Shown in pieces: positions 3,101-63,100 of a stretch of DNA of 64,000 nucleotides. The notes below the pieces were generated by a model. That model searched no databases, was not told the origin of the DNA, and saw only the letters and a program-made list of their open reading frames with translations. Source of the stretch: Cliona cf. orientalis. Lineage: Eukaryota; Porifera; Demospongiae; Clionaida; Clionaidae. The number at the start of each line of letters is the position of its first letter. The stretch's first letter is position 1. The position numbers and the translations under genes are program-made. The DNA lies in contig OZ005695.1 in assembly GCA_963930775.1 (NCBI GenBank), positions 6,076,001 to 6,140,000 of the forward strand, in the 5' to 3' direction.

Positions 3101-6100
3101 TATTCCCACATTATAAATTTAATAACCTGCAGTAATTCTTGTCACAGTTTGATCCGAGATACCATCCCCTGTAACATCTTCAGCCTCTGGGTTCCAAGAA
3201 CGAACCATAACCTAACACAGTATATGTGAAAAATTTCACTGGATGAAAATTTCACCAAACCCAGCTACTGTTGTATTACAGAAAAATTTGGTGGAAAAAG
3301 TTTCCCAATGTGGTAAGGCCATATCCTCTATGATAAAATTAGAGCAGGTGGTAAAATTTTTCTCCTGGCAAAAATTTCTATGCATACAATATCATCATCA
3401 AGTACACGTATATCTTGAAATGAAACAAACTAATAGTGCTAATAGTGCACAACATTTCTTGCACTAACTTACTTCCTGTTTCTTAAAGAAATGAAAAAAT
3501 CCAGTTCGAGGAGCCGATTGACCATATCTACTGACTGCACTATAGGAACAGTAAAAATTAATAAGTATTACTAGGGAAATGCACAGCATTGTGGGGCGAG
3601 CCTGAGTGTGCAACAGTGATTTATGTTGCACCACGCCAACTATATACTACCGTATAGCGGGAAATTTTCGTATGGTGCTAATTTTTGTATATTTCGTATG
3701 CTCCATCCCTTATACGAAAATAAAAACTGCGAAAATTTGAACGTACGAAATTTTTTTTCCCTTTCGCGAGTGATCTTTGACCTATACGCCTACCACGGCC
3801 GCACGCGGTCGTTAGCGGCTGGTGCTAAATGCAAGGCTAGCTCACTGAAAGATGTCTTTTTTTCGGTTCTTTGCCAAGGCGTCGAAACGGAGTGACCTTT
3901 CTGGTCCCAGTGGACCGCTATCAGTATCGATTACAATCAAGGAAGCCAGTGATGCTAGCGTTACTGTATATATACCGCGCATAAGTATGAGCGCTCTCAG
4001 CTGCGCATGCGCGCAATCTCCCGCAGCAAGCATACGAAATTAAAAAGTACGAAAATTTATTCTAAGGGTGTTTTGGTCAATCATACGAAAATTAGCACCA
4101 ACGAAAATTTCCCGCTATACGGTATGGGCTGCGGGATGCACGTTCGTAACCTGGCCTCTTTCTCTTCTGCCGACTCTGTGGCTAGTCAAATTCTGTCTCC
4201 TACTCTTGGCCACTGTTGAGCCGAGGCTCCGATTGATGATGAACTCTGTCTCACTCTTGCCTCCTACCCTCTGAAGCCTCAGTTCTGAGCTTTTCACTGG
4301 TTTATGCTTTGTTCAGCGTTCATATGATCATAGTGGTAGCCTAGCACACATGAATGTAAATTTGCAAGTCGTTGAATTAGAGCAGCATTATGTACAGAAT
4401 GATGGTCGTTGGGTGAGGCGTAACTAAGGAACGACGTACCATAATAATATATATACATGTATATATTTTTTATATATATCTCATTCACGCAGTTCATGCC
4501 CGTTTATGTGGGGCTCGCTCAGGCTCGCCCCAATGATACTGATAAAATGAAACCAAAGTTTCATGTGATAATTAGGTAGGGATCTGATGACAAATGGGTT
4601 GGTACATATAATGTTTTGTCAATACGGTGCACGTTGCGGCTTAGTCTCGTCCCCAGCCCCCTTTCACGCATGCAGAGAGAAGGGGTCTGGCCAAATGCGT
4701 ATAGGACCCGTATCGCCGAGGAATGTATGACGTCACGTATTTCTGGTGTGCGTGAATAAGAAACACAAAATTAAATTAACATTCCACTGTACTAGGGCTA
4801 TTTCGGGTACGATCGCGCACGCGCACAATCATTAATTTGCATTCCTTTCATGCCCGCGCAGTCATGTGACTTTATTCCGAGCATTTGATTGGCGCACACT
4901 ATACAGTGTGCGGGGACACAGGCCCTATAGGCATTTGACCAGACCCTTTCTCCCTCTTTGGGTAGGAGGGGCTGGCATGCGAGACTAGTTGTGGCTCTGC
5001 TAATATTGTGAATGTGTAAAACTAATATCCGTACATTCTTGAGTTGTCATGTCCTGTATACTATAATCTGAAAGTGACAACATTGCATCTAGTCAAAACA
5101 TCGGCAAGTTTTACCAAAGTTAAGTTGTGCGCAGAGAATCTTCGTTTATTACCCCGCGCGCATGCGCAAGGGGGTAAAGTAATTGGTCGTGTCGTCGTCG
5201 TTGTTGTCGTTATTGTTGTTGTCGTTATTGTTAGCACAAAAATCGCCATATCTCGAGATATAGGTGCCTAAGCGACTCGTAATCACAACGAATCAATCGA
5301 GTTCGGCGAAAAACTGGCTTCAGTCAAATCGAGGGATACGGTCCACGAGCGTCACAAATAGTGCCTTTTTGTAGGCCACCGTAGCCACGCCTATTGACAG
5401 TGCCCATCAATGCATATGCATACCAATAATTGTGCTTTCTGGTCATGCGCACAACTAAGTGGCCAAGCATATGACTGGTAAAGATCATCGATGTTCTAAA
5501 TAATTAATGCTCGTGATGTCTATACATCTATAGTGACTGAAATCTGGAACCAATCATAATGTAAGACAGCTATACTACTATTGTTAATTCACATCTTCCT
5601 AGTCTGGGCTAGGTCTGGGTGCAGAGAGCGCTTTTTCAAGTGTCACCGGAACCCCCAGTAGGCCAAGCAGCATTTCTATTTCTCTAAAGTTTGTAAAATT
5701 TAATTTATAGCCGTGCACCGAAAGTAAATCTATAGATTGCACAATGTGCGCGCGGGGTATGTGCTCTACAGAGCTCTAGTTTCATACTGTAATCTGATTG
5801 GTGCCTGGAAATGTGCACAATTCCCCAGACTCTTTCTCATGGGGTGCCTAGAAGGGGCTGGGTACGAGACTTAAATACCAATGGTTCTTGACATAACTGC
5901 AAAAGATATCGTATATGAATCTCACTAGAAATTAAGTTACGACTAAGTAATAAAACAGAGTTTTGTTCAATTACCTTGGCTTCTAGGCTCAATAGCTTTT
6001 GTGCTGTCTCATCAATATTGTGTGTGTGTGTGTGCGAGTCTGCAATGCGCATTAATTTTTATGCCTACTCCAGTTCATGCTGGAGTGTTTATGCTTGTGT

Positions 6101-6816
6101 TGTCAACTTGACTACATACAGATATTTGTGCTTAAGGTTTGCACAATACGATTAGTCTCGCGCAGCCAGACTCTTACACCTCGGGAGGGGGAGGGAGAGA
6201 GTCTGGTAAAGTGCTATACATCGAGTTGTCCCAGCGCCTCGTACGAGGTGCGACCAATCAGATTGCATCTTTAGTTTGCAGTGGCATATCCGATTGTGAA
6301 CGGAAAATAAATGCGCGCGCGCAATAGTATCTCATCCGTTCACAGTCAGATACGCCACCGCAAACTATGTAATACCATAAAGATGCAATCTGATTGGTCG
6401 CGCCTCATACCAGGCGCTGGGACAACTCGATGTATAGCACTTTACCAGACTCTCTCCCTTCCCCTCCCGAGGTGTAAGAGTCTGGCTGTGTGAGACTACA
6501 ATACGATAGTGTTTCATTGAGGTTCAGCTATTTGATTTGAAATTTCTTGGTGCACCATCCCCCCCCCCCCCCCCCCCCCCCACACACACATAAAATATTA
6601 TTATGTAAATACATAATCGGATGACTGGAAATCCCCTTCCATTGCGTACCTGTAAAAAATGAAGTGAAATCCAGGAGGGATCATTTTTATTCCTTTGAAC
6701 TTTGGACCGACATGCCAGCTGTTGTAGTCTATACCAAACTCTGTTCCCTCAGGCATATCAAGTAGGACTAACACGGCTCCTTCGGCAAACAATTGCCTTG
6801 CCACCTCCCGATCCAT
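168..6816 (-). CDS. AAR2: AAR2 splicing factor (U5 snRNP assembly), 3' end missing
   Basis: Nine coding exons on the minus strand: 6650-6816, 3473-3530, 3127-3211, 2334-2433, 1999-2274, 1831-1949, 1096-1146, 325-423, 168-256. All phases agree, giving about 348 codons. Exon 1 starts [14 protein letters not shown] and carries [11 protein letters not shown] and KMIPPG, the AAR2 N-terminal signature. Later exons carry [67 protein letters not shown] and [12 protein letters not shown], in the same order as human AAR2 (384 residues). Exon 5 holds a poorly conserved Ser/Pro-rich stretch longer than the human one. In yeast and human, AAR2 binds PRPF8 during cytoplasmic U5 snRNP assembly and keeps Brr2 away until nuclear maturation. 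The last exon or exons should lie left of base 1. Intron 1 (3.1 kb) and intron 6 are filled with repeats. Confidence 0.95.
459..697. repeat. Short inverted-repeat element (CATCCCTAGTAGC family), copy 1
   Basis: It starts at tacatccctagtagc and matches, in reverse orientation, the copy at 16406-16655, including the blocks around cataacttaagtatg and ttttcaagttatg. It lies in AAR2 intron 7. The right end is decayed. Confidence 0.6.
727..1068. repeat. Inverted-repeat element with GTTGCCAAC ends
   Basis: It begins gttgccaacc and ends gttggcaact, about 340 bp, inside AAR2 intron 7. The interior holds cacgccca motifs and gggac/gtccc inverted words. No coding capacity was seen. Confidence 0.5.
1195..1800 (-). 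repeat. Inverted, internally deleted copy of the 33560-34740 repeat
   Basis: Read on the minus strand it matches the plus strand of 33560-34740 at both ends. One end has the region translating as [14 protein letters not shown]; the other has the block around catgtactgttaatagatgatcatg. About 500 bp of the middle are missing here. It fills most of AAR2 intron 6. The open reading frame inside it is a repeat-borne frame, not a gene. Confidence 0.8.
2735..3047. repeat. Foldback element with about 70-bp terminal inverted repeats
   Basis: The left arm 2735-2812 (aggagtacattactaggagt...) is repeated inverted at 2975-3047 (...actcctagtaatgtactcct). The arms are nearly identical apart from a 6-base insertion in the left one. 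It lies in AAR2 intron 3. No open frame. Confidence 0.85.
3648..4124. mobile_element. MITE-like element with TACCGTATAGCGGGAAATTTTCG ends
   Basis: It begins taccgtatagcgggaaatt and ends aatttcccgctatacggta, so the termini are about 20-bp inverted repeats. Further inverted words inside (gtatggtgctaat / attagcacca) extend the arms. It is non-coding and lies in AAR2 intron 1. Related termini occur at 37912-38530 and 58580-58750. Confidence 0.85.
4642..4987. mobile_element. Foldback element, TAGTCTCG family
   Basis: It begins tagtctcgtccccagccccc and ends in gaggggctggcatgcgagacta. The arms also share the inverted pair ggggtctgg(cc) / (tg)accagaccctt. It lies in AAR2 intron 1. See the matching elements at 6153-6498, 50836-51170 and 60099-60544. 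Confidence 0.75.
5140..5795. repeat. Dispersed ~650-bp repeat, copy 1
   Basis: It runs from a GCGCATGCGC-containing head (near 5157) through atatctcgagatat (near 5250) to agagctctagttt near 5770-5783. The same order of blocks appears inverted at 13095-13737, and a shorter copy lies at 43265-43690. A GTC/GTT-rich stretch at 5188-5232 makes a spurious poly-valine frame. It lies in AAR2 intron 1. Confidence 0.75.
6153..6498. mobile_element. Near-perfect 346-bp foldback element, TAGTCTCG family
   Basis: It starts tagtctcgcgcagccagact and ends agtctggctgtgtgagacta. Almost the whole element is one palindrome with arms of about 150 bp; for example gaccaatcagattgcatct on the left is mirrored by agatgcaatctgattggtc on the right. 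The centre is near gcgcgcgcgcaatagt. It lies in AAR2 intron 1. Confidence 0.9.
6559..6591. repeat. Poly-C tract followed by (CA)n
   Basis: About 23 consecutive C followed by five CA units, some 60 bp downstream of the AAR2 exon 1 donor (on the minus strand). It is a simple sequence, prone to length error. Confidence 0.9.
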
Positions 6817-7032: not shown

Positions 7033-10000
7033 ATGGTGGCATCAACGTGTAGATATCCAGTATTGATTCTGTGTTGTGTGATCATTGCCAGGAGTGAAGG
7101 AGCGAGCGAGTCCAAAGATGGCACAGTCCGAGTCTTGTATATTGGAGGACCCGAAGCGGTCAATCAAGCGCAAGCTGCACAACATTACATAAACAGCAAG
7201 TCTATATTACCTTCTGGATATCATCTGCAGATTATTGGTGGGGACTCAAAGGTATATGCTACGATGCTATATTATACATGCTATTATACATGCAACATGA
7301 TGCCATCACATCGCAACGAGTTAGCAGGGATCGGATACAGGGTTGAAGGAAATGTATCATGCATGTTAGCACAGTGTATAGTCCCTAATGCATGTTAGAC
7401 TGGGGTAGGAAGCATGGGTGTACCGTACGTGCTGATGCACCCATGAGAGTTTTGTACTATTTACTTAGTATAAACATAACAAATCATCTTCATATCCCAC
7501 TGAATTAATGAAATGGCCGTCCCAGGCTGTACTTGGTATTGATGGTGTGATGAGTGTAAATATAATATTATGCAAATTGAGGGCATTCCATTGTTAAATT
7601 AACGCTACAGTGCTGGTCAGTGCTGATTTTATAATAGGCTGCTGTGATTATTAGCTATAATTTGAGAGGAGGATACATCGATATACCCCACTTCACTTCA
7701 TTTGCAATAATTAAGTAGCATGATTTGGAGTTTGGGGACTACTTTAACTCTATTCTATTATAGGTGTGTAATCGGAAGCAAACATTGGATATATTTTACT
7801 CCAACCTCCTAAATGAAAGCTTCTATGCTGTTGTTGCCGGTGTCTGTCTGGCTGATACCGAGATATTAGCTGCTGTTTCCAACTATCACCACCTGACATT
7901 AGTAAGCAAGATACTTGCATTCATAACACTAGTTCATATCAATACGTTCTTATACAGATATCATTTACTACGTCATCAACGACACATCCAGATGAAATGG
8001 AACCTTATCCATACCACTTTCATATAGTGCCCTCTCATTTTTATATCGCGCAGGGAATTGCTAACTTTCTAAGCTTCAGTGGATTTAAATGGAAAAGGGT
8101 GGTCATTATCACTCAAGACCAGAAAAATTATAAGAAGGTAGCTAGCTATGCGATAGTGTCATCATAAATAGTGCTAGTGTAGTGCTGTACGTGCTGTGCA
8201 CTATTGTACATGTATTAATAACAGTAGGCTGCTTATTATAATTCTGAGATTTGTGTCAAAATTAATGGTGTGGTATGTGGATGGTTGATCCCATACTGTT
8301 GGTTTCATTATGCAGAAATAACTACAGTGTACTTCTGAAGTGAACTATAATATATGCATGATGCACATGTAAATCCACCTCACAGACCACAGAGCTGTTG
8401 ACTACTACACTTACTGACAGGAACTTTACTATCCTAGGCAATATTCTCTTATCTGAAGGTCTGATTTCTATCACAAAAGATGCTCTATTTGTAAGTAAAT
8501 GGTGGTGGTGATATTACCGTAGTGTCCCGGGCAAGCACCCACTCCCCATGTACCACATTTCAAGGGACTATACTGTAGCAGCTTCCGTATGGGATTTTGA
8601 TCCCGGGTAAGCGCCCATGGATCTGGAACACTACGGTATACTTTGATGCTATATTAATGTAATGATTATGCTTACATTCATTCGTCCCAGGTACCAGATT
8701 CCCGGATATATGTGCTCAATATGAATTCGACATTAGCTGAAATAATTTTCTGCCAGGTAAGACCATCTTGCTGTTTCTTTGGATAAGACGATATTTTTAT
8801 ACACTATCAGAGTTTTTACTACCATCGATAGCAGTTGTTTTCTGAGATTTGTATATCATAGTATTAATGCATGAGTAGCTCTGTGTACATTGAATCCTGA
8901 ATAAAGTGTATGTGTACAGAAAACCAAGCCAAGAGCTTTTACTAATTAGAGTTTGGAGTGATGCAATGAAAGTTATAACTGGATTAGCACTTACTATGTT
9001 CCAAAAGTGCATATTACTGTTATATGAATGTAGGCAATAGATGCAGGATTGCAGCAGTACAGTTATGTGTGGATCATTCCTGGAACATACAAAGAGGACT
9101 GGCTGAGTGAAAACATCACATGGATAAACTTTGATTTTGAGTGTCTGCACAGCATTGGTGAAATTAGTGGATTTGTTCATAAACAGCGCGTCATTGCTAT
9201 CAACCATTATCCTTCCCCTAACCCTAATCCTGATGCCACTGATGTTATGGTAATTGTGTTAAGAGTGTAGGTGTGCTAATGCTGTCGAAACTACTTCTGA
9301 GACCTGCACGTGCAGTAAAATTTATGAAGGTAGTCTGCTGATCCATATCACTTTCTCTTCAGCAATATTGCCATAGCGTTAGTGCCCATTCCTGGATATG
9401 TGCTATGTACCAAATTTCAGGGTCAGTATAGCAGTTACCACATGATCGTTTGTGGGCCGAAACAGTGAGTTTGTGGTCAACTGGTAACACATAACTAAAG
9501 CCACTTTGGTACCTTACCTTGTTATTCAAGGGTTTTGTAGGTGTATTGATTGATGGACTGGACTAGAGTAACAGTAACAGACTAGTGATCACCACTCTTG
9601 TGTATGACGAAGGAGTTCCATTATGTATGCATAGGTCCACTATTAATTGCCCCTGAAACTGTTCCCAAGGCTGTGATGTTTTGCAGTGGCTGGTGCCATG
9701 TTTGCAGCAGTATACAAACAGGGGTCAGATAAACCAACAGTTTTGGCCATCTTTGGCATGCTATGATCTATGTCACACTTTTAAGCATTCATTCAATGTT
9801 ACATAAGGAATACATGCATACCAGACATTTGCATGAACGCAAGTAATAACCAAAAATATCAGTTGACCAAGCAAGAAACTCACGTACTTAGTATAATATT
9901 ATTGTGTTTGCATCAGCTGCCATCCCAATATATGAAATCACTGCTGCACTAGACAGTTATCTGAGCTCTGGTTGAATGTAATTGGTTGTGTATTATCTTT

Positions 10001-13000: not shown

Positions 13001-15719
13001 TGTGTATTTTAGCAGGATAAGTCCTCCCTGATTAGCAGGTTTACGTAAACAGTGCATCAATATCATACCAACACGTGGGCATGCTAATAGAAAACTAGAG
13101 CTCTGTAGAGCACATACCTCCCGCGCACATTGCACTATCTATAGAGTTGCTTTTGTGTGCATGGCTATGATTTTGTGAACTTCAGAAAATTTGTGGAAAT
13201 GAATTGTACATAGCTACTGAAGGTCCCGGTGACAAAAGCACTTTCTCTGCACCAGCTCTAGACTACTAGGAGATATGAACTGATGCTTCCAATATTTTTG
13301 TTGTAATAGCTGTCTTACATTATGATTTGGACTGCAGATTTTAGCTCTGTCAGCGGATGCGGATAGACTATAGATTTTCCTTGATGAGCATTGTTAATTT
13401 CGATGATCTCTACCAGTCATATTCTTTGCTACTTGGTTGTGCATATGAGCAGAAACACACAATGGGCATGCATTATGTATTGAGTAGGTACTGTCGATAG
13501 GTGTGGCTACATTAGCCAACAAAAAGGCACTATTTGTGATGCCCATGGATGGTGTCCATCGATTTGACGCACATTGAAGCCAGTTCTTCGCTGAATTTGA
13601 TTGATTCGTTGTGCTTATGTGTTGCTCAGATGTCTATATCTCGAGATATGGCGATTTTTGTGCTCACGACAGCAACAACGATAATGACACAACCGATTAC
13701 CTTACCCCTTGCGCATGCGCGTGGGGTAATAATATGATTCTCTTGTTCCTATTCCTCAAGCTTGAATAGCGTAGTTCAGTGTTTTGGCCTAGTTGGATAA
13801 TTTTCAGCCATGCAATAGCTTCAGATGTAGTGGGATTGAGGGGGTGAGCACCATCACTTTAATAACACACAAGCATCGATTATTTCATTTTTAAGTGTTA
13901 TTCCACTGACAATAGCATTCACTTTGCTCTGAGGACTTGGGAGTATGACATATCAAACTGCCTGCTACATGAAAACATGTCCACTAACATAGTATGCGGA
14001 ATCTGTGGAGACCTTGGTGTAGTTTGTGTGGGGGGGGGGGGGGGGGGGGGTTTTACTATATCCTGTTTTGATTATCTAATATATAATAGATGTCGTGTTG
14101 AATGTATTCAGCAGCAACATCTTGTCACTAGTCCTCTCTCAAGTACGTGGCTGTAGGATATAATATAAGCATAGGAACCGGGGGACGGGGGCTGGGAGAC
14201 TATAGCCCCAAAATTTCTAGGAAGTTGATGGAACCTTCCCTTAATCTCCAGCCTCATTTCTTTACAATAAGGATTTTTAAGCTATACTAGGCCAGATATT
14301 TTAGGAGTCAATATATTAAAATTAGCATGATCACATAACTTTTTCGCACGCTAGTGCTATATTCAGCCCGTCCCCCCTCCCCCCCCCCCCAGCCTCCAAT
14401 ATCTTCTTACCTATATGCCTCTGTGATATCCACCCCCATACTGTGTTGCCAGGTTGAATAATGAGCTTTATCATTACTATAGTAGATGCTAACAAATGTA
14501 GGTACCGTATTTCTTCTCATGAAAATAATAATATTATTATTATTGCTTTAGCTTCGCCGAATTTTTAGAGGTTAATATTCAACATTCTGTCTGCGTGCGC
14601 GTTCTATTCCCGTTTATAGCATATACACGTGACGATCTTTGCCGAAGATTAGAGACTATTTTCAATCATTCGGTAAAGGGTGCCGAATAATTAGAAGGGC
14701 CGAAGTTTTAGGGCTAAGGCCACTGTTAGTAGTAAACGTGTTTCTGGTCCACAAATTCCCCTCCACTACATGCGGGCGGGCGGTCATTATTAGCCATTAT
14801 GTCATTATTATGACGTCATATCCTGTTCAATTTCCTCATTTAATAATTAAATTTACAACTGACCACTGGGTTTATAGACTTCAGCTGCGTATCGTACATC
14901 TCTTGAAACGTCCGAGTAGGAGGGTGTAGCGGAGAAATCTGCCATGGCAGCAAGGTACGCTTCGTTTTTAAGCTAAAAACGGTCAGATTCACAATGCATG
15001 CTCATGACGACTAGTGCCACCAACACGAAAAAGACGAACTTTCTGCCAGCCATGTGTGAACGCTTTCTAGCAATGTGGGCGGGGCTACATGCAATAATGG
15101 CATATGTCATCGATAATGGCGAAATTCACGCGGGGCCAAATATTGACGCGGGCGGGTGAGCAGAACTCGTTTACTACGAACAGTGGCCTAAGAGAAAGCA
15201 TAATATCTAGTCAGGTGGTGTATATGAAGGCCTGAGGCCTGTAGCATTCCCAGCAAGTGCATGAGGGTGCTGCTAATTAAAGTTTGTAAAGACATGATTT
15301 GCTGTCCTGGACATGGAATGTATCAAACTTAGTATCATTTTTACATAATTCTCATAATCACTGCAGATGGTGCGACTTTATAAGGATCCCAAAGGAGACA
15401 CCATCTTCACTCATGTCACTAACGATGCTACAGGGGCTGCTGGTACTGGATTTGCAACTGCTGATGACCATGATCGGGTTACTACCTTGGAGAAGAAAGT
15501 CAAGGAGTTACAAGCACAGCTTGCAGCTTGCGAGGTACTACAGTGCCTATAATACTTATAACCTCAAACTCAAGCTCAATATTTCTCGGAATTAAACTGA
15601 TCCTGGGTTCGAGGCTACAATAATACTATACCAGCATGTCTACTCTTTGGTTATTGCTATCTAGATAAGAATTTACGGTTAAACATTGACACTGCAACAC
15701 ATATTTGCAGCCAGATTAG
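7033..15719 (+). CDS. GABA-B-type metabotropic (class C) G-protein-coupled receptor
   Basis: Sixteen coding exons, about 780 residues: 7033-7251, 7764-7901, 7958-8137, 8386-8490, 8691-8756, 9034-9249, 10008-10217, 10272-10338, 10391-10652, 11251-11377, 11454-11567, 12076-12213, 12469-12609, 12678-12860, 15367-15534, 15711-15719. Most introns are phase 0. The start gives a hydrophobic signal peptide (about residues 1-25). Exons 1-9 form the extracellular bilobed ligand-binding region (GFKWKRVVIITQDQ; YSYVWIIPGTY). TM1 is in exon 9 and TM2 in exon 10. Exon 11 carries the TM3 stretch SLCFGTINTKMWRVYYIF, typical of GABA-B receptors. TM4 and TM5 are in exons 12 and 13, TM6-7 in exon 14. Exon 15 adds a short cytoplasmic coiled coil (VTTLEKKVKELQAQLAACE). 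The last exon (Pro-Asp-stop) is the least certain part. Ligand unknown. Intron 14 (2.5 kb) is repeat-filled. Confidence 0.92.
8515..8638. mobile_element. 124-bp MITE with TACCGTAGTGT ends
   Basis: It begins taccgtagtgtcccgggcaa and ends in aacactacggta; a second inverted pair is gcaagcaccca / gggtaagcgccca. It lies in intron 4 of the receptor gene. It is the short version of the element at 33480-34816; a third relative lies near 57606-57776. Confidence 0.8.
11694..11770. repeat. Short TAGCCTCGT inverted pair
   Basis: tagcctcgtccccaggcca is followed about 60 bp later by tggcctagggatgagg, a decayed member of the TAG(T/C)CTCG family, in the intron after exon 11 of the receptor gene. Confidence 0.4.
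13095..13737. repeat. Dispersed ~650-bp repeat, copy 2 (inverted)
   Basis: It is the reverse complement of 5140-5795 in block order, from tagagctctgtagagcac to tgcgcatgcgcgtggggta. It lies in intron 14 of the receptor gene. Confidence 0.75.
14030..14050. repeat. Poly-G tract
   Basis: About 21 consecutive G inside receptor intron 14. A C-rich tract (14373-14390) lies 330 bp downstream. Confidence 0.9.
14502..14716. mobile_element. TACCGTATTTCTTCT element, truncated copy
   Basis: It begins taccgtatttcttctcatg and shares ttctattcccgtttatagcat and tttcaatcattcggtaaaggg with the fuller copy at 53383-53725. The right terminus is not recognisable. It lies in receptor intron 14. Confidence 0.6.
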
Positions 15720-36700: not shown

Positions 36701-39700
36701 TTGTCAGCAAGCTTGTGGATCTTATGTAAATGTTGAACTAGCAAGCCACACTCTCCAAGGCCTTTCCTGTGAACGGGTGAGCAGGGATGGTGGTACAAAA
36801 AGTATACACACAAGGATAGCACCTTCCCTGCTTATGGTCTCATTTGAAATGATTGTTTTTAGTTGAAATTATTTGCTCAAACCATTTTGTGACTATTTGG
36901 GAAACCTTCCGTACTGGACCAATGCGCAGTGAGCGTTTATAAAAACTTATAGACTCGCTTGGCCTTTAGGGTTCATTTTAGATAGCTCTGTGTAGTATAT
37001 GGATTCACCATACATGTACATTGTACGTGTAATGCCTTTAGACCGTCGTCTTTGTGGGCATGGCGCAAAGCGTACTAGCTCCTAAGCAAAGCATGCCTTG
37101 TGGGTGACCCAGTATAGTATTGATTTCATGCAGTTCACACAATGGATGAGCTAAAGTTGACTGGCAACTGTCTTCTTGGATCAAGACCTCTTCTCTCCTT
37201 TGATGCGGTATGTCTGGCTGATTGATTGTACTGCAACTGTGGTAATATGATGAGTCCACTCTAGTTAATCGCATCACAAGCTATATAGGTGCTTCGTTGG
37301 TTATAAAGTGATTTATTCTTATCACTGTGCAACCACCTGTCCACCCACTTACTGTATATTGGCAGATGATAGCACTGCTTAGACACTGAAGCCAAGGGAT
37401 CTACAGGATTTAGAATACTGAAGACACTAATATAAAATCCCGAAGGTGAAGCCTGAGGGTTTTATAAGTATCTTAAGTATTCTAAAGACTGTAGTTCCCA
37501 TTGACTGTGAAGTATCTAACTTATTTAGACTCTAGCATGGGGTTGCTAAGTAACATATGATGTAAGTTGTCCTAGGTATCAGAAACTGGATTTCTAAGTT
37601 GTAGGTGTTAAGTTGTAAGTTTTCGAAGTGACTTAGATACCAATGAAATGATAACCAGGATTTGTTATAACTAGAGTCTAACTGTTATTTATGTCACTCC
37701 TGTATTGTACTTCTATAGCAGGAGAGTTTTGTAAGTGCAGTTTTGCAAAGTTGCCTCCTAGCTATTCAGAGGAGAATAAATTTTGTCTGCAAGACCACAC
37801 TCACCATTAGTTCTAGCAATGCGCAAATGAATTCTTTATGTTCTTGCTTTTATGGCAGTCATTGTACATGTATCTGCAAACAATACAAATTTTTTTGTAT
37901 ATTTTTAGCTATGCCGTACAGCGAGTAATTTTCGGGGGGGGGGGGGGGGGGGGACTAATTTGGAAAATCAGAGTAAGCCCTAGGAATTAATTTCGTGATT
38001 TAGATTTCATGACAGCAACCCAGTCGAGGGGTCTGGTGCTTCGTAATCGATGTAATCGATACACGCGCTTAAACTTGCTTGTTAGTTTAAGCCTCATTTG
38101 CAGAGAGACTGGGACAAATAGCACGAGATAGAAGAACATTAGCATCAAAGACCAGTGCCTCCAAGCTATTCTTCTGTCTTTCAGTATAAATATCAGCATT
38201 TTTCAGTATTTTGCATACATTTTCAGTATTTTATAAAGATCTCCATATATGATGTGTGTACTGAATTCCCCATTTTTCAGTATTTTTGTCAGTATTTAAG
38301 GTCAGAATTCAGTTAAAATACTGACAAATCCGTATACTTGGAGGCACTAAAAGACTCTGTCAGCTGGATGACAGTAGCGATTGTTAACACTGAGAACAGT
38401 TGGCCACGCTGCCATGATTTTTTGGCCACGCCCATCATCTATCCACTTGCATACGTAGGCATTGGGTAATTTTCGTGACTCCCAAAATAATGGAAATTAG
38501 CACCCCACAAAAATTACCCGCCATACGGTATAACCCTTGTGTATCCAAGGTCCCAGGAAGCTCAGTTTTCACCACTTCTTGTCCCTATTGATGTTTTATC
38601 TATTAATTTTGGTATATCTAATGCAGGCATTTGGTGGCTTTCCACACTTGGAGGTTTTAAAGGAGCTATTTACACAGGTAAATAAGTACTTACTCTCTGG
38701 CTAGGCACCTACATGTAGATAACTCTGCATATATTTAAACGTGGCTTTGCTTGAGCAAATGCTGGAGTTGTTGCCAATAATTGGTTGTGAAGATGCATCT
38801 AAAATTTTATTTGAGTTCATCTTTTGATGAAAAGAATGTTGACACTCATCCCAATTGTAGGTCTTTAGTACACCATACTGTCATCCAAAGAGTAAACCCT
38901 TCATCGATCATGTTTTTCATTTTGGAATACTGGATGGTAGAGTATGGTTCAGAAATTACCAGGTATGTTTAGATGGCATGTAGATGCTTTTATTATTCTT
39001 TTCAACTGCTCCAGATGGTTAATGATGGCTCTTCACTAACCGAAATAGGTAAATTTGCTATATATGTAGCCAATTAATGATTATGGATGTCACTGGGTTT
39101 AGAATGCTAGTAAAGAGATGAAATATTCATTATGATTGACATGCTGACAGCTAGCCTGTAGTAAACTGCTTGACAGGGTATAATATCATTTTAATTCAGG
39201 ACCACGATTTGTGCTCAATCTGATCAAAGTATTTGAAGGTAGCTTTGGTGGTGCCACACTATACGAAAACCCCAACTACATTACTCCAAATGCAGTAAGT
39301 GAATCTTTTATTTTACTCAGGATAGCAGTCTTTAAGTTAGTGTATGTAGGTGGCACGAATATGAGTAGTACTGTTGAATGATGTCCCACTAAAGCCATAC
39401 CTATTCAATATGTTGTTGCTCGGACCCGACCGACCCTATCCTTTTCATATTGCAAAAAAAAAAGGCGTGTCCACACGTTGCGCATGCCGTGCGCTTGGCT
39501 GGCCAGCCCATCTAATTAAATTAAGCTAACCTCGTGTGCGCGCTCTTTTCAGCTCTGTGATAGCTGTTCTGGATCGACAACGAGGTAGAGCGAGATCAAG
39601 CTGAGCGCAAATGGCAACTGCTTCATGTGCTTGGCTATCAGTCTTGGTAAAGCGCGGTGACAATATCATGAATATATTTAAGTAATTAATTTTTTTCCCC

Positions 39701-40969: not shown

Positions 40970-46813
<5,844 letters not shown>

Positions 46814-50298: not shown

Positions 50299-53200
50299 AT
50301 GAATCCTTGGTCGACTCAGGACAGCTTGCTTGGGATGAGGCTTGGTGATCCACAGAGTGGGTTGGCCCTGGCTAGGAGGCATGGTCTGCTAGGTATCACA
50401 CAAGTAAGTCGGGCAGGTGGCCTTCCTAGCCTCGTAGTCAGGCCTGCTACGAGGCTAGTGGCCTTCCATGCCCTGTCGGTCCACAACTTGACAGCCACTT
50501 CACTGATAATTTTACAATTTTTACCATCATAGGATATTGATGAGGAAGCTGAACTCAGGTTATCAAAATGCACTTCAGTGAGGATGATTAAAGCACTAAA
50601 GGAGATTTCACAACTAAGCAGTGAATTACACGAGGTCTGTTATACAGCACCATATGTGAAGTTGGAAATTAGTAGTCATCCGATGCAGTACTGACACTCA
50701 CAACTAGTCTCGTGAGCCAGACCCTCACACTCCACGGTGTTTGCTTTTTCCAGGATAAATGCGCAGAGGGAGGGTCTGGCCCACTGCCCATTTAGATCAT
50801 GTTAGATCCAAGATGTCAACTGGTGTGCATTTGCCTAGTCTCGTGCCCAGCCCCCTTCATGCACGCGCGAGAAAGGGTCTGGTCAAAAGGGTTGCACTAA
50901 CGCGTCCGGCTGGAATGCAATAATTGGCAATTATGGTGTGCGTAAAACAGAAACTAACCTCCACTTCCGCGATCCATGCCGTACCATATAGACGGAGCGC
51001 ACGCGCATGCGTACGGACCACGCATAATTTATACATTCCACTAATGTCATGTGACCATGGTTCTGCAACCTGATTGGGCCGCAATATACGTACCTCGAGG
51101 ACAAGGAAGTGCGATCCTTTTGACCAGACCCTTTCTCGCGCGTGCATGAAGGGGGCTGGGCACGAGACTAGCACTTGCCTGGGACGCTATGGTAGTTATA
51201 GCATGGGCCAGGAATTAATAACCGATGATCATGTTATGATATATTGCCATAAAGGGTGATGGGCATACTCTAGTGTATGCCTACAAATACTATATCTAGA
51301 GCTTAAATCCATTTAAGTAGCTCATCTGCTTCGTCATCTTCGAAATATGCAGGCTCTAGACATAGGCACAGAGCACGCACGTCTCAACACCATACGCGAC
51401 CCCTCCCATATGGGTGTGGCTATCATTCATGCAACTCATTCTATGGAAAACCCATGATATTCAGAGCATAAGACGTATATACCCTGGATAAAAGCAGCAA
51501 GAATATAATGTGTGCTGTAACTGTGACTTACATGTATACTCCAGCAAATCCTGTAATTACATAAACCCAGATCCTATTAGTGGAGGCTTGCAAGACAGAT
51601 TGTTACTGTATAGGTGTGTGGAGTATGATACACATAATTACTGTTTCATCACAGTTATTTCTTTATTTTAGCTTGAATTAGAAATCCATAGACAACTTCT
51701 TGATAAAGACATGGCTGATTTTATTCACATTGATGTACTTGGTAAGTCTAAACAGTACAGTAGGCAAGAAATAGCTAATTCTGTATGTGGTTGATGTTTC
51801 AAGCATAATATACCATATTTATTTGAATAGAAGCCGCACCCCGGTTAGTAGCCGCCCTCGAATAGCAGCCGTACATAGAGCTCTGCGAAAGGAATAGTAT
51901 AGCCGCATGCATGCACAAGCACAATTAAGTAGGTGTGGCCATGATCTCAAGCAATGAACGGTCATTAGTTCGAGAAACATGGCAGAAAATGTCCTTGGCT
52001 TGGTTCTGCTGCTTATTTCTTGATCATGTACATTGTAGAAAATCAATCCTGAAAAAGGTGTCTATCGTGTCAATATCACCAACAGGTATCGTTCAAAATT
52101 AAAACTCACCCTCGATTAGTAGCCGCACTCCAGCAAGGCTGAAATTAATAGTACTAAGTAGCCGTGGCTAGTATTCAAATAAATACGGTATTCCTAAATC
52201 ACTGATACAGCTATAATTTGATTTGCAGTCTATAAGCTACGTGTATGAGCTATTCCACTCTGCTTCATAATTTTTTATGCTATGTGTACTGTTGGATGGA
52301 GTGAGAATGTCGATCAAAAAGCAACTAAAAAAATTGGTCGTGTTGCCCCATACATAACACTATACAAAATGTAAGTCACTATCTACACGTAAAAGCCTGG
52401 TAGACAGTTTTAAAAGTGAAAGCAAGTTGAAATTCATGATAATAAGTATCCAGCACCATACCCTGTCCGTCCACCCTTCACACTTCTTGCAAATCGAGAA
52501 AACTCATTCCTCAGAATGGCAACATCATTTTTCAATTGCAGTCGGTTGTAGATCTACACGATTCATCTCTGTTTCAGCTTCAAATTTTGCCATAGTTCAC
52601 GCACGCAAAAATTTAGCTACCAACTACACTCGCAAATGAAATTCTTTTGAACGCATGACAGCATAAGTGCATACCAAGGTCATGTGATTATGGCGTAAAT
52701 GTGCATTAAGTCCAATCTCCTCTGGGCGTTTACTAGTGGAATCAGGATCTGGAGGCATACTCTGGTCTCTAGATGCTTTATTATCTCACATGACTATGAA
52801 AAATATGCACTGTACTTGAGCATTAATGAGGAGGAGAGGTAACCTAGAGTAGCAAGTGGCATGGTAAGAATAAGTGTGGAGGTTGAGGTATCTTTATTGG
52901 GCCCTAGCCTGATATATAGCTATACACCATGGCTGTTTGTAGGTATTGGTATATGGCTAACTGTGTGGAATTTTGGGTAGACTAGTGTCTCTCTTGTGAT
53001 TTCTGTAGAATCTCGTTTAAGAAGAGTGGATACTTTATTGAATCACTTAACAGAAGTTGTTAGTGAAAAGGACAAGATTGTCGGCAGACTTCAGAGCAGA
53101 GAAGCTGAAAACTCACTCAAGATTGAAGCACCTTTTCAGAAGTATGCCTTTAGTGTGAACTTATTCACCACCTAATCCTTAACAGTACATAGAACAGGCA

Positions 53201-54530
53201 CGTTATTTTCCGTGATCCTGTTGTTTCTGTCGTACTTTATCCGCTACCGGTATAATATTATTATGATCCTAAGTTTCTAAGCATTAATATATTATGGGCC
53301 AAGCACCTGTACATTCATATCTAGTGGGAAAGATATAACCAGCATGATTTGTGCCTTTGCTAATGAGCTAAGTATTCTAAAGTATTGTATTTCTTCTAAA
53401 AGTTTGGCATGCTAATAACGATACTGTTCAAGCTTTACCAAATTTTAGAGGTTACTGTAGTTAATTGAATACATATGATCTAATTTAACGTAAGAAATTA
53501 GCATTCTACGAATTTTCATATGCGTAGAGTGATTGACGAAAAGTGTGCATTTTCAAAATTGATTTTCAATGTGTTCTATCCGCGTGCGCATTCTATTCCC
53601 ATTTATAGCATAAACGCACGATGATCTTTGCCGAAAAAAGTAGAAACTACTTTCAATCATTCGGTAAAGGGTGCTGAATAATAATTATTATATAGAAGGA
53701 CTGAATATTTAGAAGAAATACGGTAGTTTCTATCTGTTAGATCTAGTGACGGGTAAATTTCAGGGGTACTAATTTTCATGGAAGTCAGAGAAGGCCCTCA
53801 GATCTAGAGTTAATTTTTGTGGTTTTAAATTTCGTGACAGTTATATAGCAACCCAGTCCAGGGGCATGGCACTATATAAATTGATACATGTGCTCGATCT
53901 CACTCACGACTTTCCTCGTATTGTCACAAAGCTGCATTTGGATCTGCAGAGACTAGCACAAATAGCATGAGATAGAAGAAGAATTGGTGTTGAGGATGCC
54001 ATTAGCCGGATGACAGTGGCTACTGTTGCTTGCTATTATACTGCAAACAATTAGCCGTGCTTCCACGATATTTTGGCTACGCCCATCATCTATCCACTTA
54101 CTGCATGTATAATAATATCACTATAGGCATTAAATTCTGTGGGTGGAAAATTTTATGACTGCCAACCCAACCACGAAAGTTAGCACCCCACGAAAATTAC
54201 CCGCCATACAGTATCTAATACTCTTTACTTTCTTTGCTTCTCAGACATGCCAAGTCAGTTTTGAGTTCTCTCGGAGGGGATGTGACCCACATAGCTTCTC
54301 ACTGTAGGCAGTTGGAATGGCTCTCAGAACTTGATCTGCTCAACAATACTTCACTTGTATGTTACAAATTTACCATACTATACCGGTACCATTGCATTGG
54401 TTCTTTGCTTTTTTATACACAGAGTGAGAAACTCTCCAGTGGTACCCAAAGTCTGGTCCAGTGCAGGTCAATGTTTCAGCAGTGCCAAGACTTGCATGAT
54501 GCAAAGAAAGAACATCTGACTCAACAATAA
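50299..54530 (+). CDS. HAUS2-like augmin complex subunit
   Basis: Six coding exons, 209 residues: 50299-50403, 50533-50634, 51672-51741, 53009-53141, 54245-54356, 54423-54530; phases agree. It starts MNPWSTQDSLLG; an Asn-Pro-Trp motif near the N terminus is also a feature of HAUS2. The rest is predicted helical and coiled coil: LELEIHRQLLDKDMADFIHI corresponds to the Glu/Leu-rich, Asp-Val-Val segment of HAUS2, followed by LLNHLTEVVSEKDKIVGRLQ and an N-S-L-K-I-E-A segment like HAUS2 N-L-P-I-E-A. Human HAUS2 has 235 residues. Augmin recruits gamma-tubulin for branching microtubule nucleation in the spindle. The match is weak in sequence but consistent in order, length and helicity. An ATG in another frame at 50283 was set aside because it cannot be spliced in frame. 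Confidence 0.65.
50836..51170. mobile_element. 335-bp foldback, TAGTCTCG family
   Basis: tagtctcgtgcccagccccc at the left and gggggctgggcacgagacta at the right; the arms continue (gaaagggtctggtcaaaag / ttttgaccagaccctttc). It lies in intron 2 of the HAUS2-like gene. A partial member precedes it at 50705-50790. Confidence 0.9.
51811..52190. mobile_element. 380-bp MITE with TACC(G/A)TATTTATTTGAATA ends
   Basis: Begins taccatatttatttgaatag and ends ctagtattcaaataaatacggta. Repeated tagtagccgc words occur on both arms. It lies in intron 3 of the HAUS2-like gene. Confidence 0.85.
53383..53725. mobile_element. TACCGTATTTCTTCTAAA element, fullest copy
   Basis: Left end ttgtatttcttctaaaagtt; right end tatttagaagaaatacggta. 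Interior words ttctattcccatttatagca and tttcaatcattcggtaaagg identify the family. It lies in intron 4 of the HAUS2-like gene. Confidence 0.8.
53748..54211. mobile_element. Copy related to the 37912-38530 element
   Basis: Right end gaaaattacccgccatacagta. It shares ggccttcactct-like and cccatcatctatccactt blocks with 38400-38460. The left terminus is decayed (acgggtaaatttcaggggta). Confidence 0.65.
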
Positions 54531-54571
54531 TATTAAACATGACATTGTTTCAATTCTCAGTGGCATGAACT

Positions 54572-54583: not shown

Positions 54584-54638
54584 CTGGTAGTATGTAGCGG
54601 TTTATTAGTTAGTTGTGGGTGTGTCAAAAGAGCGCTAA

Positions 54639-57127: not shown

Positions 57128-60100
57128 TCAGTCCTCATCATCGTCATCGTCACAGTCTGGAGGATGATGTGCCTGATCAATATTCTCATAACCATGTGAA
57201 GTAGTACTCTAAAGTGAGGGAACGTTACAGCAATAATTATTATTTTACTTTCCGCTAGTGATGTGATTGTATATCAATCCCGTGAGGTATTCCATGTTAC
57301 TCTAAAAAAGAGTGGTGATTATACTCATCCACAATAATAATTAAGCTGACAATGTCTAAAGCTAGAGCCCATGGGCTCTCTATTGAGTAAGCAACCATGC
57401 ACCACGTGTTCCTGCTTAATAATTATTAATGCATTATTAATTTTCTTAGATCATCAATCTGAGACATAAATGGACTTCTGCATGTAACATATATACGTGG
57501 CATTGTTTCATAGAGCAATCCGGGCACATTTTGGGTCTACACAGGCTAGAGACTTCAAATTTACAGGAGAAATAATTCAAAGAGGTTGTATATAGTTGGT
57601 AATACTGTTGCAGTAGTGTCCTGAGTAAGTGACCACGAGTGCTTAGATATAACTTGCAATTTTGGCCTGCATCGGCACATACCCGGGATATAAATTGCAT
57701 ACATTTGTATAGAAGCTGCTAAATTAATTAAGCCCATGACATGAAGTGTATGGGTGCTTGTGTGGGTCACTACGGAGTGGCCTTGACTCAAAATTGGTTG
57801 TCAGTGCATTATGCTTAATTTTGTCATGGAGGGTACAATTATTATTATACTCACACTCATATTATAGAGATACATAGCAAGATCATCATCAATACTCCCT
57901 CGACGTCTCAGAGCTTTCTTTTTCTGCATCTGTAATAATATTGTCATGAAAGACAATTTTTACAGTGGATCATATACATAAAACAGTCAAATGGCCAATG
58001 AGTTTACTTTCTTCGCTGGTCGAGGTGGTAGGTGGGTAGCTTCACTGGCAGCTTTGCGTGGAAGTCTTGTGGCGGTAAGCTCTGACTCGGCCCTCTCGTA
58101 CATCTCTTCTTCTCCTGAATCATCACTGTTCTGACGACCAAACCGCATCACCTCTGACTAATATACCGTATTACAGTGAAATAATTATCCCAATCAACCC
58201 ACAGAAGATAATATAATACTAACGGTCTGCTTCCTCTGCAGTGCATTCTCCATGGGAATAAGGTCCACCATCAAATTGGTGTACTGTACTCTGTTCTCAG
58301 GATTGAAGTGACTAGATATCATGTTAGGAAGTTGTCATTAGACCACATAGTTGGATGGATGGTGATAGTGACATACCTAGTCCTCTGTAGGAGTCTCTGT
58401 TTGGAGAAGGCATTGACCCTGGCCTCTGTGTACTCCCCCTCCATGGCCAGCTTAGCAGAGGTGTGGGCAGCATGACTACCAACAACAGCAAGGTGGATGT
58501 CTATATGCACATACATGTATAACACATGTAAGTGAAGTATAAATTTATTTAAACAAGCTGTAGTGAGTCTAATGATGATTACCGTATAGCGGGAAACTTT
58601 CAAGGGAGAAAACGTTCGCAGAATGTTAAACTGATTGCATAGATGGGTGTGGCATGCCTAAACATTTCGTGGAGAAAACTTTTGTGGGTGACCATCAAAT
58701 TGCGAAATTCGTGAAGGTTTTCTCACTCGAAAGTTTCCTGCTATACAGTACGTCTTCACATAATACAAAGGAACCCTATTTTTGGTGGGATGTACATGTA
58801 GTACTAAGAAAATTTGCTGTATTTAGTGGAAGTTTCAATCGAAAACTGATCGAGTCAATAAGGCAAGTACTTTCTCTCTGAAATGATCAAAAATGGGTGT
58901 GGTTTGTGGGAATGGCTTCCAAAATCTTCACCTCTTACAGCCTCAATTGCAAGATGAGGCTACCAGATAACAAGTTCTATAGACCTCTACTTTAAGAGAG
59001 CCCCCATACCTCTTTCAGCAACCTGTCTTTCATTGGTGGTAGGTTTGGCATCTGTTATGACTCTCCTGTTCCTAGAGCCATCCTGGGCAGTGTACTCAAT
59101 CTGCAGCTGGAAGGGCAGGTGGGGCTTCCCATCTATGCTCAATGGAGGCACTTTAGCAGAAACACTAGTGGCACTTGCTTCTGCTGTGATTGTATACAAA
59201 TTATATACAATATTCATAACAGTCAGTCAAACAGAATATGCATGTAGGTTGATCTATGGAGTGATTGTATAATGTCATACAATAATATCATAGTTGTGTG
59301 ACATCTCACCTTTATCTTGATCAGTGGCAGGGGTAGCTGGACTCTTCTTGTCAGTCCTTACTCCATACTCATAGGTCAGCTCTGTGTCAGCTGTCACGTT
59401 TCCAACTGGAATAATGAGAACACTGTCTCCTGTCTCTTCAGTACGAAAATACCTGAGTATACATGTACATGCATGCATTTAAGTGATTATATAGCATCTA
59501 GTAGAGCTACGAGGATGCATAGTTGAGCGACTAAAGGTTCAAGGTCATGGCCAATGAGTATTTTACTTACTCGTGTCCCCAGGAATCCACACTTTTTGGA
59601 GGAAGCCTAGGGACAAGGCTGCATTTCACCCCCAAACTATCATATTATTATACATGTATGCCATACCAGGCCATTATTAACACAATTGTCATAATTTGTG
59701 GTTGCTATGGTTGCCTGCTTATCACATGCACTGTGGTCAGCAGAGAGTGGGTGGCCATATACACCAGGGGCGGATCCAGAGGGGGTTCGATGGGCTCGGA
59801 CGAACCCCCCTTCACTGGCATAAGAAGCAGGGGGGCTGGGGGGCTCTAGCCCCCCCCCCCCCCCATCTTGTCAGCCAAGTGGGCCTAAACCTAGGAAGTT
59901 ATTTATTCTACTAGGCCTTGACGTTACCAGATTTGTGATGTAAAGTCTACTTGACAGTCTTAGCATAATAATGGGCATGGTTAGGCGCATCGTGTGAACC
60001 AAAAAAATTTTTTGCGCGCTTTGCACGCAATTTTGTTTACAGCCCCCCTGTTCAAAAACATCTTCTTACGCCACTGCGCCTTTCTGACTAGCTGTCTATA

Positions 60101-63100
60101 GTCTCGTGAACCAGACCACTCCCTCTGTAGCCCTGGATGTATTGCATCACCAGCACTCGGAGGGAGGGTCTGGCCACTCTGGCACAGTTTTTGTGACCCA
60201 TGTTGGAATGTGAACATGACCAATCAGATTCAAGCTGGAGCAGTGATTAGAAATTTTGAATGCACCTGGAGTAGAGATCAAAGTATGGTTATCAATAGCC
60301 TCGTACCCAGGCCCTTTGATCGAGGGGGAGGAGAAAGGGGTACGAGGCTAGGTTATCAAAATTTGTAGGTGTGTGGAGTAACATCAATGCACCATCTGCA
60401 GACAGTGGTGACCACGCTACAAGCTGTTATGCCCACATCCCAGCCAGTTGCAGTCCACTGTGTCACAAAAACTAGTGGCCAGACCCTCCCTCCGCGTGCT
60501 GGTGATGCAGCGCTGTGGAGGGAGTGGTCTGGTTCACGAGACAATAGCTGTCTAGTGCTTAGCCTGTATAGTAGTGTAAAATCTAGGCTTCATAGAACCC
60601 CCCATGCCTTTAGCTAGCTACAGTACTAAAGCCTCTGTCTTTAGCTCACCTACTTGGACGTTTCTTAGTGAATATTAAATTTTGGTCGATTTGAAGTCTT
60701 GGAGCGCATCACACAAGACCTCGAACACGCAATCTAGCGAGAAATGGGCGTGGCTTAAAAATTCGCGCGCGCTTTGCGCACATGCTATGATTAGACTAAG
60801 AACCCCCCTCCTGGATCCGCCCCTGTACACTCAGCAGTTTTTCATACCAAGCTACAAACCTAGCTAGCTGTCAGCCATGTCACAGCATCCCCCTATGATG
60901 AAGATATTCAAGGGACTCCTTGTGCCTCCTTTCGTGAGCGAGGAGTGGATGGAAGAACTGAACACCTTTGAGTTAAGTCCTGATGATGTCTGGATTGTCT
61001 CCTACCCCAAGTCAGGCACTACTTGGACACAACAGATTGTTAAACTGATTCAAAATGGAGGCAAGGACGATGGCAGAAAGATTACTGATGCAATTCCCTT
61101 CGTGGACATGGTGACAAAGGACCCCACCTTCTACTATCAAGTCAATCTGCAAGAGCTTCCCTTTCCACGAGCCTTCAAGAGCCACTTCCCCTACGACCTC
61201 ATGCCCTGTGGACTACCAAGCACAAAGCCCTGCAAGTATATCTATGTAGCGAGGAACCCCAAGGATATAGCAGTGTCACTCTTTCATTTCTTAAATGCTC
61301 ATAAACTCTTTCCAGCAGATTGGAAATTCAGTGATTCTCTTTCCATGTTCATGAAAGGCGATGTTGGTTATGGAAGCTGGTTTGATCATGTGCTGGGCTG
61401 GTGGGCTCATAGGGATGACCCTAACATCCTCTTCCTCAAATATGAAGATATGCAGAAGGACCTCACTGGTTCAGTACAAAAGATTGCTACATTCATTGGA
61501 AGTACCATCAGTGAAGAACAGCTTCAAGATGTTGTCAAGCAGTGTGAATTCAAAAGCATGAAGAGCAACCCACAGGCCAACTACTCGTGGGAATCAGCTC
61601 ACCAGGCCAACCCCTTCATGAGAAAGGGAGTGGTGGGAGACTGGAAGCACCATTTCTCTGATGAGGAGTCAGCTCAATTTGACACTCTCTATGCTAAGAA
61701 AATGGAGGGAACTGGCCTAGTGTTTGACTTTTCACTCTAGTTACCTAGAATAGAATTTAATACCATTAGGCTATATATTTTGTCTTCCATGACATAGTTT
61801 CTTATTGCAATCATACAATCGCTCGACTGTACACTGTACAGCTTGGTATCATCCAGTCAATGGGTATACATGCTGTAGATAATAATTGTTGGTTTAATTA
61901 TCACCATACCACAAAAGAATGCTATTTACCTGCCCATTTAATAAAAAATTAAATGTACTGGTAAATGGGAACAAGATAGAAAGGAAGGCTACATGTATAC
62001 ACCCCAATTATGGTAGAGGCATAGATAATTATTATAGTGAGGTATAACAAGATTTCATGGACTTGTACCATGGCCACTGCGCACAGAGGTGCTAATGAAC
62101 CGTTGAATGTTGAGCCACACTCACTAATTGCACACACGCATGGTGTGGGAACTATTCGAGGGTGGGGTACCGTAATTTGCAAAAATTTTGTATTAGAAAT
62201 TTTTGTGCAACAATATTTTCGTCAATCTCAAGCACATGCCATATATTCGCTAGCTGTTTAAGTTAGTGAAAAATTTTTAACGATGAAAGGTTCACAATTT
62301 ATGGTATATTTTTTGGCCTAGGCCAGATCATCAGTGCAGGAATAATTCAAGGAAATACATGTACTATACGCACTCATGATGTACAGGAGAAATTCACTTA
62401 CAATCCACTGTGTAACACTATTCTTGTTCTGACATTTGTTGCAATGATGGGATTGGCCAGAATGCTGGAGAACTCTTTGGTGATGTTCAGAGGATCAACA
62501 ATTGTAACCTGTACAGTAGGAAACATATTAGTTGGTGTGACTATAATGAAGGCACTAAGTGCAAAATGCCTAGTGAGCTGAAATGAAAGTTGCACGCTGC
62601 ACTTCTTGGGATTGTACATGTACATGTAGTATAAATCTTGTAAGCCGCTTACATACAGCAGAGACACACACAAAATAAGTACTGTAACTGTCCTGCTGTG
62701 CTATGTGTGCTGAGTGTTAATTGGTGCTGCATAGGACGGTTGAGTAATTGACATTGTCTAAGTTTTTGGTGAAAAAAAGTAGCCTATTATATGTAGATTG
62801 TTATAGCATACTACTATTAACTACCAACTGCAGATTGTGAATGAGAACATGGTTATCAAGTTGAGAAGCACCACACATTTCCTCTTACAATTACTGTACT
62901 TGCTCTAATTATCCAAAAATAATTATTAATATCACCATTCGGCGTTGAATAGAAAGTAAATGAAGTCACTGCAGCCAATGGCTCGTTCAAGTGTAAATAG
63001 AACAGATCTGAAAAAAATGGAGAAAGCTCTAGCTAGTGCACTAGCAACAAAGAAACATCATGCAGTTGATGTCCAACTGCAAAGGTCTGGTTCGCGAGAC

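Follow-up and report, generated by a model that had tools for sequence, protein, structure and literature searches.

The pogo superfamily of DNA transposons includes the Passer family, which is described in the main text of a survey of that superfamily as having a DD35D catalytic triad in almost all members and either BrkDBD together with HTH_Tnp_Tc5 or HTH_Tnp_Tc5 alone (Gao et al., 2020; PMC7386202). Miniature inverted-repeat transposable elements (MITEs) that are mobilised in trans by the transposases of related elements, together with orphan families lacking a cognate parent, are reported for rice Stowaway and Osmar in excerpts of PMC3660474, and an abundant MITE of Blepharisma, BogoMITE, comes from a pogo/Tigger-type transposon (excerpts of PMC9942856). 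Here, a stretch of 64,000 nucleotides from the sponge Cliona cf. orientalis (contig OZ005695.1, positions 6,076,001 to 6,140,000; hereafter the window) was analysed, in which short elements of differing sequence end in TACCGTA, or a close variant, and its inverse. The original prediction, made from the letters of the window, held that these elements were unrelated MITE families whose ends had converged through a single transposase recognising a short end with a TA target. The present analysis indicates instead, with a probability of about 0.9, that most of them are MITEs of one large and diverse clade of the pogo superfamily, in which transposase-specific subterminal sites lie behind an inherited CCGTA tip.

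In anatomy the CCGTA clade appears closest to Passer. Judged by the main text of PMC7386202, the two share TA duplication, short inverted ends, the DDE_1 domain and, in several copies, DD35D; some copies of the clade also carry the BrkDBD and HTH_Tnp_Tc5 combination. The clade differs in having DD34D and DD36D members and one subclade without a DNA-binding domain visible to Pfam. Excerpts of that paper gave no CCGTA tip for Passer, its table of end motifs being placed in the supplement, and a literature search returned no description of a TACCGTA tip among the matches listed. For related transposases serving MITEs in trans, rice Stowaway and Osmar are the nearest precedent seen, although on the excerpts of PMC3660474 their transposase family is another one (mariner-like) and their ends are different; the carrot Stowaway end, for instance, begins with CTCCCTCC (excerpts of PMC6881990). 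BogoMITE differs, on the excerpts of its description, by a TAA or TTA duplication, a single main family and a germline-limited ciliate setting.

Transposases with the CCGTA tip

Transposases were searched for in the whole genome assembly (216.8 Mb in 149 contigs, the search space of all genome-wide counts given here), and the resulting loci are denoted by L numbers. A DDE_1 search yielded 210 candidates, of which 150 matches were scored; a Passer-like search, using the catalytic exon of the CCGTA-ended L026 as query, yielded 87 matches, 34 of them examined with their flanks. The flanks of 30 Passer-like and 27 other DDE_1 loci were then scanned for inverted repeats without reference to any motif, the near-copies L066–L068, L001/L002 and L003/L005 being counted singly. 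Sixteen of the 30 Passer-like loci reached an inverted-repeat score of at least 17, and TACCGTA stood at the border (no more than five bases from the start of the repeat) in 15 of these, whereas all seven of the 27 other DDE_1 loci that reached this score carried TACAGT. Lowering the threshold to 15 gave 15 of 17 and eight of eight, respectively, the extra Passer-like locus being L064, where the palindrome of a surrounding MITE was scored. No inverted repeat whatever was detected around seven of the Passer-like and 13 of the other loci. A transposase gene with the same ends, which the original prediction had proposed to look for, therefore exists in the form of CCGTA-ended pogo transposons.

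A tree of the catalytic domain was calculated from 44 of 60 loci, after near-copies, second copies of one place and short or weak matches had been dropped; 23 of the 44 rows could be labelled by their ends. A branch with 100/97 support has the 16 CCGTA-labelled rows on one side and, on the other, the seven TACAGT-labelled rows along with an unlabelled psq-type group. An earlier tree of 30 rows, three of them CCGTA-labelled, agrees. As a supported branch unites the transposases of several subterminal groups on its one side, inheritance accounts for the common tip more simply than convergence does. The TACAGT-ended group is called Tigger-like here, a label of our own taken from the DD29-36D range in the main text of PMC7386202. 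It resembles the CCGTA clade in possessing DDE_1 and TA-bordered ends within the same genome, but differs in its TACAGT instead of TACCGT ends, in DD29-34D among the copies read and in its position across the branch, so that the CCGTA-clade transposases do not group with it.

Two features indicate that the same-ended transposons belong to the pogo superfamily: their DDE_1 catalytic domain, with its D-D-D triad, and the TA target duplication seen in three families, each of a different group. Between the last two catalytic residues the spacing is DD35D in L040, L041 and L042, DD34D in L045 and DD36D in L051; a hand count on the alignment gave 34 for L046, 36 for L052 and L060 and 35 for L050. 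Pfam detected BrkDBD, HTH_Tnp_Tc5 and DDE_1 in L026 and L060, HTH_Tnp_Tc5 and DDE_1 without BrkDBD in L023 and L052, and HTH_Tnp_Tc5 without BrkDBD also in L017. When one transposase was compared with solved structures, nothing matched at E 0.01. The transposase genes appear to be split by introns.

The subterminal sequence changes with the transposase. Across 36 ends from 18 elements, positions 1–7 have the TACCGTA letter in 35 or 36 ends, and positions 8–22 vary. Since TA and near-identity of both ends were conditions of the search that supplied this set, its fixed first bases are partly fixed by construction, and the motif-agnostic scan described above is the unconditioned test of the tip. 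Distances between DDE domains and between subterminal sequences (bases 8–30) were correlated in a Mantel test with r = 0.84 for the 18 two-ended elements and r = 0.69 for the 15 that remained without near-copies; in both cases none of 9,999 permutations gave a value as high. Near-copies aside, the nearest transposase relatives are 36–76% identical in the DDE region.

Such co-divergence fits a fixed cleavage tip combined with a transposase-specific binding site. TACCGTA is composed of the duplicated TA target and the five terminal bases CCGTA; on that model the catalytic domain of the clade may act at CCGTA and thereby keep the tip fixed, and the 15–20 bases behind it may be read by the N-terminal DNA-binding domains of each transposase and so diverge with it. 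Each subterminal group would then be served by its own transposase or by a close relative, MITEs presumably being mobilised in trans in the past or at present, and excision and reinsertion at TA would leave the TA duplication.

A psq-type DDE_1 group (among L016–L030) was also considered as the owner of the CCGTA tip and was rejected, as no strong inverted repeat was found around its copies and as the CCGTA-ended short elements beside L018, L020 and L021 and in L027–L029 look like separate insertions common to copies. DDE_1 proteins with a DGHSSH-like motif occur in L018, L020, L021, L022, L025 and L027–L029, with HTH_psq in L018 and L027, and some of them lie in open frames of 900–1,100 codons. 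The repeats that contain them are alike over about 5–6.5 kb (L018/L020 and L027/L028 compared), and no terminal inverted repeats were found in them. Next to the DDE_1 copy at L039 (G000:C1:31565730-31568700), self-comparison showed a tandem array that repeats about every 375 bp.

Elements and ends in the window

Chance levels for the window were obtained from 200 dinucleotide shuffles of its 64,000 nucleotides. The window contains 13 copies of TACCGTA and 10 of TACGGTA; their sum of 23 compares with 3.6 on average in the shuffles (sd 2.1, maximum 10). Seven convergent pairs of the exact motif lie 60–1500 bp apart (shuffle mean 0.045, maximum 2) and divergent pairs are absent from the window, from which it follows that TACCGTA marks ends; the expected excess of the paired motif over chance was thus confirmed. 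True inverted-repeat elements account for three of the seven exact pairs (3648–4124, 8515–8638 and 29053–29585). Two others reuse the right ends at 8638 and 29585, one couples 62168 with the end of another element, and the pair 41981–42407 has ends unlike each other.

Borders were drawn from a scan for TA-bordered inverted repeats and from local alignments of the window (Table 1). Of the 13 positions originally listed as elements with paired ends, 10 have an inverted partner; a terminal inverted partner within 2.5 kb was not found for 14502, 57606 and 62168, and the element at 62892–63217 had been missed. A twelfth pair, at 39790–40002 with tips TAGTGTG and TACTGTA, is doubtful. Several elements carry variant tips on one or both sides, namely TACCATA, TGCCGTA, TATTGTA, TACCGTG and TACTGTA. 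The window elements are short and possess inverted ends without coding sequence for a pogo-type transposase, pogo-type proteins being those searched for, and are therefore classed as MITEs.

Table 1. Elements and single ends with the TACCGTA tip or a variant in the window (positions are those of the 64,000-nucleotide stretch)
Feature	Position	Strand	Ends and remarks
477-bp MITE, GGGAAATTTTCG group	3648..4124		TA, then CCGTATAGCGGGAAATTTTCGT; inverted ends 24/24
124-bp MITE, GTGTCCCGGG group	8515..8638		inverted repeat only 14 bp
TTTCTTCT-type relic, left end and interior	14503..14655	+	no right partner; motif starts at 14503
533-bp MITE, CTGGTTAATAAGCGC group	29053..29585		TA-bordered inverted repeat
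1337-bp non-autonomous element, GTGTCCCGGG group	33480..34816		inverted repeat and empty sites
421-bp MITE, diverged AAATTTT group	35375..35795		inverted repeat; TACCATATAGCTCC / TACCGTACAGCTCC
619-bp MITE, GGTAATTTTCG group	37912..38530		inverted repeat; tips TGCCGTA / TACCGTA
152-bp MITE, TTTATTCTAAT group	41257..41408		inverted repeat; TACCGTG tips
380-bp MITE, TTTATTTGAAT group	51811..52190		inverted repeat; tips TACCATA / TACCGTA
343-bp MITE, TTTCTTCTAA group	53383..53725		inverted repeat; tips TATTGTA / TACCGTA
GTGTCC-type element, degenerate left end	57606..57680	+	no partner
171-bp MITE, GGGAAACTTTCG group	58580..58750		inverted repeat; tips TACCGTA / TACTGTA
Lone TACCGTA end, AATTTGC type	62168..62204	+	no partner; not above control
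326-bp MITE, CTTGCTCTAATTAT group	62892..63217		ends TACTGTACTTGCTCTAATTAT / TACCGTACTCGCTCTAGTTAT

At least seven groups had been proposed behind the tip. Distinct subterminal groups are indeed present, but by eye they number about six: the GGGAAATTTTCG group (3648, 58580, 37912 and 35375), the CTGGTTAATAAGCGC group (29053), the TTTATTCTAAT group (41257 and 51811), the TTTCTTCTAA group (53383 and 14503), the CTTGCTCTAATTAT group (62892) and the GTGTCCCGGGTAAGC or CCCGGG group (8515, 33480 and 57606). The interiors of most groups do not align with each other in the window. The 3648 element is known from 40 copies at 89–100% identity, itself included (40 scored of 424 candidates), and the 33480 element is inserted in a repeat to which the interiors of 14503 and 53383 are related.

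The ends of the 12 paired window elements, with the tip excluded, were compared with 37 ends that belong to, or adjoin, transposase genes (16 two-ended elements and five single ends), using 1,500 random TA positions in the window as control. Both ends exceed the 99% control level of 9.75 in seven of the 12 (3648, 29053, 37912, 41257, 53383, 58580 and 62892), 41257 being matched to a lone end close to transposase L045; neither 8515 nor 33480 exceeds it on both sides. The ends of the 3648 element match those of transposons L061 and L064, and two further members of its group align with the same transposons, 37912 with L064 (91% identity, 47 bp) and 58580 with L061 (71%, 87 bp). Transposon L062 and the 29053 element share 80% identity at both ends, over 91 bp on the left and 66 bp on the right, and the ends of L112 resemble those of 29053 as well. 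The two ends of 62892 align with transposon L042 at 79% over 81 bp and 75% over 106 bp, and 53383 aligns with L046 at 91% over 33 bp. For the lone end at 62168, a likeness by eye to TACCGTAATTTGC of L050 was noted.

Other repeats of the window were recorded in passing. At the right ends 30913 and 42407, and at L065:1323, TACCGTA is followed by a CCCTCG...CGAGGG-like palindrome, with no matching inverted partner. Long inverted repeats with TAGTCTCG borders at 6153–6498 and 50835–51171 represent another MITE-like type, with arms of 121 nt at 95% and 73 nt at 92% identity, respectively. In addition, two open frames encode a Ras-association and a sulfotransferase domain, respectively.

Target duplication and the calling of borders

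The tip was predicted to be an element border with a TA target, and the empty sites of three families agree with this. Flanks of the 3648 element were read in the window and in 20 others of the 40 scored copies. All 21 have TA at the left border and 20 have it at the right, and the ten bases outside the borders are not conserved. Transposons L017:449-2798 and L064:135-3132, which belong to different groups, occupy the same dinucleotide in one MITE family; in all 12 uninterrupted copies of this host MITE that were examined (of 40 scored) a single dinucleotide stands there, TA in 10 and altered in two. Apparently L017 and L064 were inserted independently at the same TA. Insertion sites common to different families are reported for carrot Stowaways in excerpts of PMC6881990. 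The rejoined host copy measures 444 bp and contains 42 TA dinucleotides.

Several elements had been said to differ from their empty context by TA only. This applies to 33480–34816, of whose target empty copies lie at 14561–14655 and 53562–53636 in the window and at L002:666-715, with one TA in all three, but a flank search over the loci examined gave no empty site for the other window elements tested. The empty site of L061 against L004 falls in a TATATA run and is not exactly readable. Target duplications differing from group to group, which the original prediction had named as grounds for its refutation, were not seen; TA was found in all three readable families, which belong to different groups.

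The paired motif had also been recommended as a cheap border finder for the whole genome. Exact convergent pairs with 105–135 bases between them number 297 genome-wide, against 109 for the reversed pattern; the reversed pattern in this one 31-base size slice and the window pair count serve as the genome-wide control. Two abundant pair classes, X and Y, were inspected in 10 copies each, their flanks being judged by eye. The left flanks of class X are unlike, apart from two of the 10 copies that share theirs, and the sequence is conserved past the right end, whereas in class Y conservation continues past both ends. The right border of class X and both borders of class Y thus lie inside longer repeats, so that the motif pair overcalls borders. 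The paired seven-base motif by itself yields false borders, and border calls also require that the tip be followed by an inverted repeat. An abundant repeat with a TACCGTAGGTCGGGTTTTAATTGCG left end was also seen in L114–L123, its right end lying beyond the stretch examined.

Competing explanations and implications

Several observations weigh against assigning the window elements to a single CCGTA clade. In the motif-agnostic scan, 14 of the 30 Passer-like loci have no inverted repeat scoring at least 17; the Passer-like L048 has a long inverted repeat (117–163) whose border lacks CCGTA, which may reflect a variant tip or the loss of an end, and CCATA at one end of L058, CGGTA in L112 and CCCTA in L111 depart from the tip as well. 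Pfam detects no DNA-binding domain in L050, L055, L059 and L066, the four proteins scanned from a subclade with AAATTTTCG-type ends, which shares the same tip. Among the window elements, 35375 is above the 99% control at one end only, 51811 is below it at both, its sole extended match being to L060 (75% identity, 71 bp), and 39790, with its variant tips, does not pass at both ends. None of the window elements matches the catalytic part of a pogo-type transposase (246 open segments, 30 Passer-like loci); the six window matches of the 246-segment search lie, by position, in element ends or flanking repeats. The link to a parent therefore rests on the ends of the elements. Finally, no transposase-bearing parent was found for the CCCGGG group (8515, 33480 and 57606) among the loci examined.

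This last point bears on the possibility that orphan groups, chiefly CCCGGG, are cross-mobilised by the transposases of other groups, with which they have only the tip and a faint subterminal resemblance in common, an explanation that is compatible with the one preferred here and would add to it for some groups. The CCCGGG group is numerous, with 1,256 genome ends within three mismatches of its 26-base end and none for the reversed-pattern control. A parent was not found by a pattern search with eight loci, in four further Passer-like places or by the pogo-type transposase search of the window, and none was found for 8515–8638 among the loci compared. Its best subterminal match is L062, to which the left end of 33480 scores 7.5, below the 95% control of 8.0. 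Rice Stowaway MITEs and Osmar provide a precedent in the excerpts of PMC3660474. However, with 34 of the 87 Passer-like matches examined with their flanks, a parent may exist unseen or may have been lost, and cross-mobilisation is regarded as a tentative and rather doubtful addition.

It is very unlikely that, as originally supposed, all groups are moved by one transposase whose recognition is limited to the short TACCGTA end. A tip common to the groups and the same TA duplication in three families would be expected of it, but several subterminal groups possess a diverged transposase gene of their own with matching ends, and the subterminal sequence tracks transposase divergence, which would be unexpected if the tip alone mattered. 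The seven-base pair moreover carries weak information, as the 109 reversed pairs against 297 indicate. Nor does the idea of unrelated transposons that converged on TACCGTA fare well. It agrees with the failure of most group interiors to align, whereas the transposases of the groups lie together on one side of the 100/97 branch and no non-pogo transposase with the tip was seen, in searches that covered pogo-type transposases among the superfamilies; convergence is accordingly judged highly improbable, and the description of the families as unrelated is abandoned. A by-product of chance or base composition, which a motif of only seven bases, the four of seven exact pairs that are non-elements and the abundant pairs internal to longer repeats might suggest, has a negligible probability in view of the 23 copies against 3.6, the missing divergent pairs, the same-ended transposons and the empty sites, and is already contradicted for the elements with empty sites and transposase-associated ends.

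The preferred explanation, a single pogo-superfamily clade with an inherited CCGTA tip, replaces the convergence of unrelated families by one clade in which the tip is fixed and the subterminal sequence co-diverges with the transposase. Transposon families that have a tip in common but differ in the sequence behind it are ordinary, and the present genome offers an unusually clear case. A more far-reaching proposal, which at present seems rather unlikely, is that the clade forms a natural recognition-code series with a fixed five-base catalytic tip and about ten subterminal specificities that split as the transposases did, in which transposases of other groups move the very numerous CCCGGG orphan by way of the tip and a weak resemblance in the subterminal bases. 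If this were true, the tip (CCGTA versus CAGT) would diagnose the transposase clade from the end sequence alone. In practice, the account supplies a rule by which orphan MITEs of this genome may be assigned to a transposase clade, and it provides ready pairs of transposases and ends with which the division of labour between tip and subterminal sequence in pogo elements could be studied.

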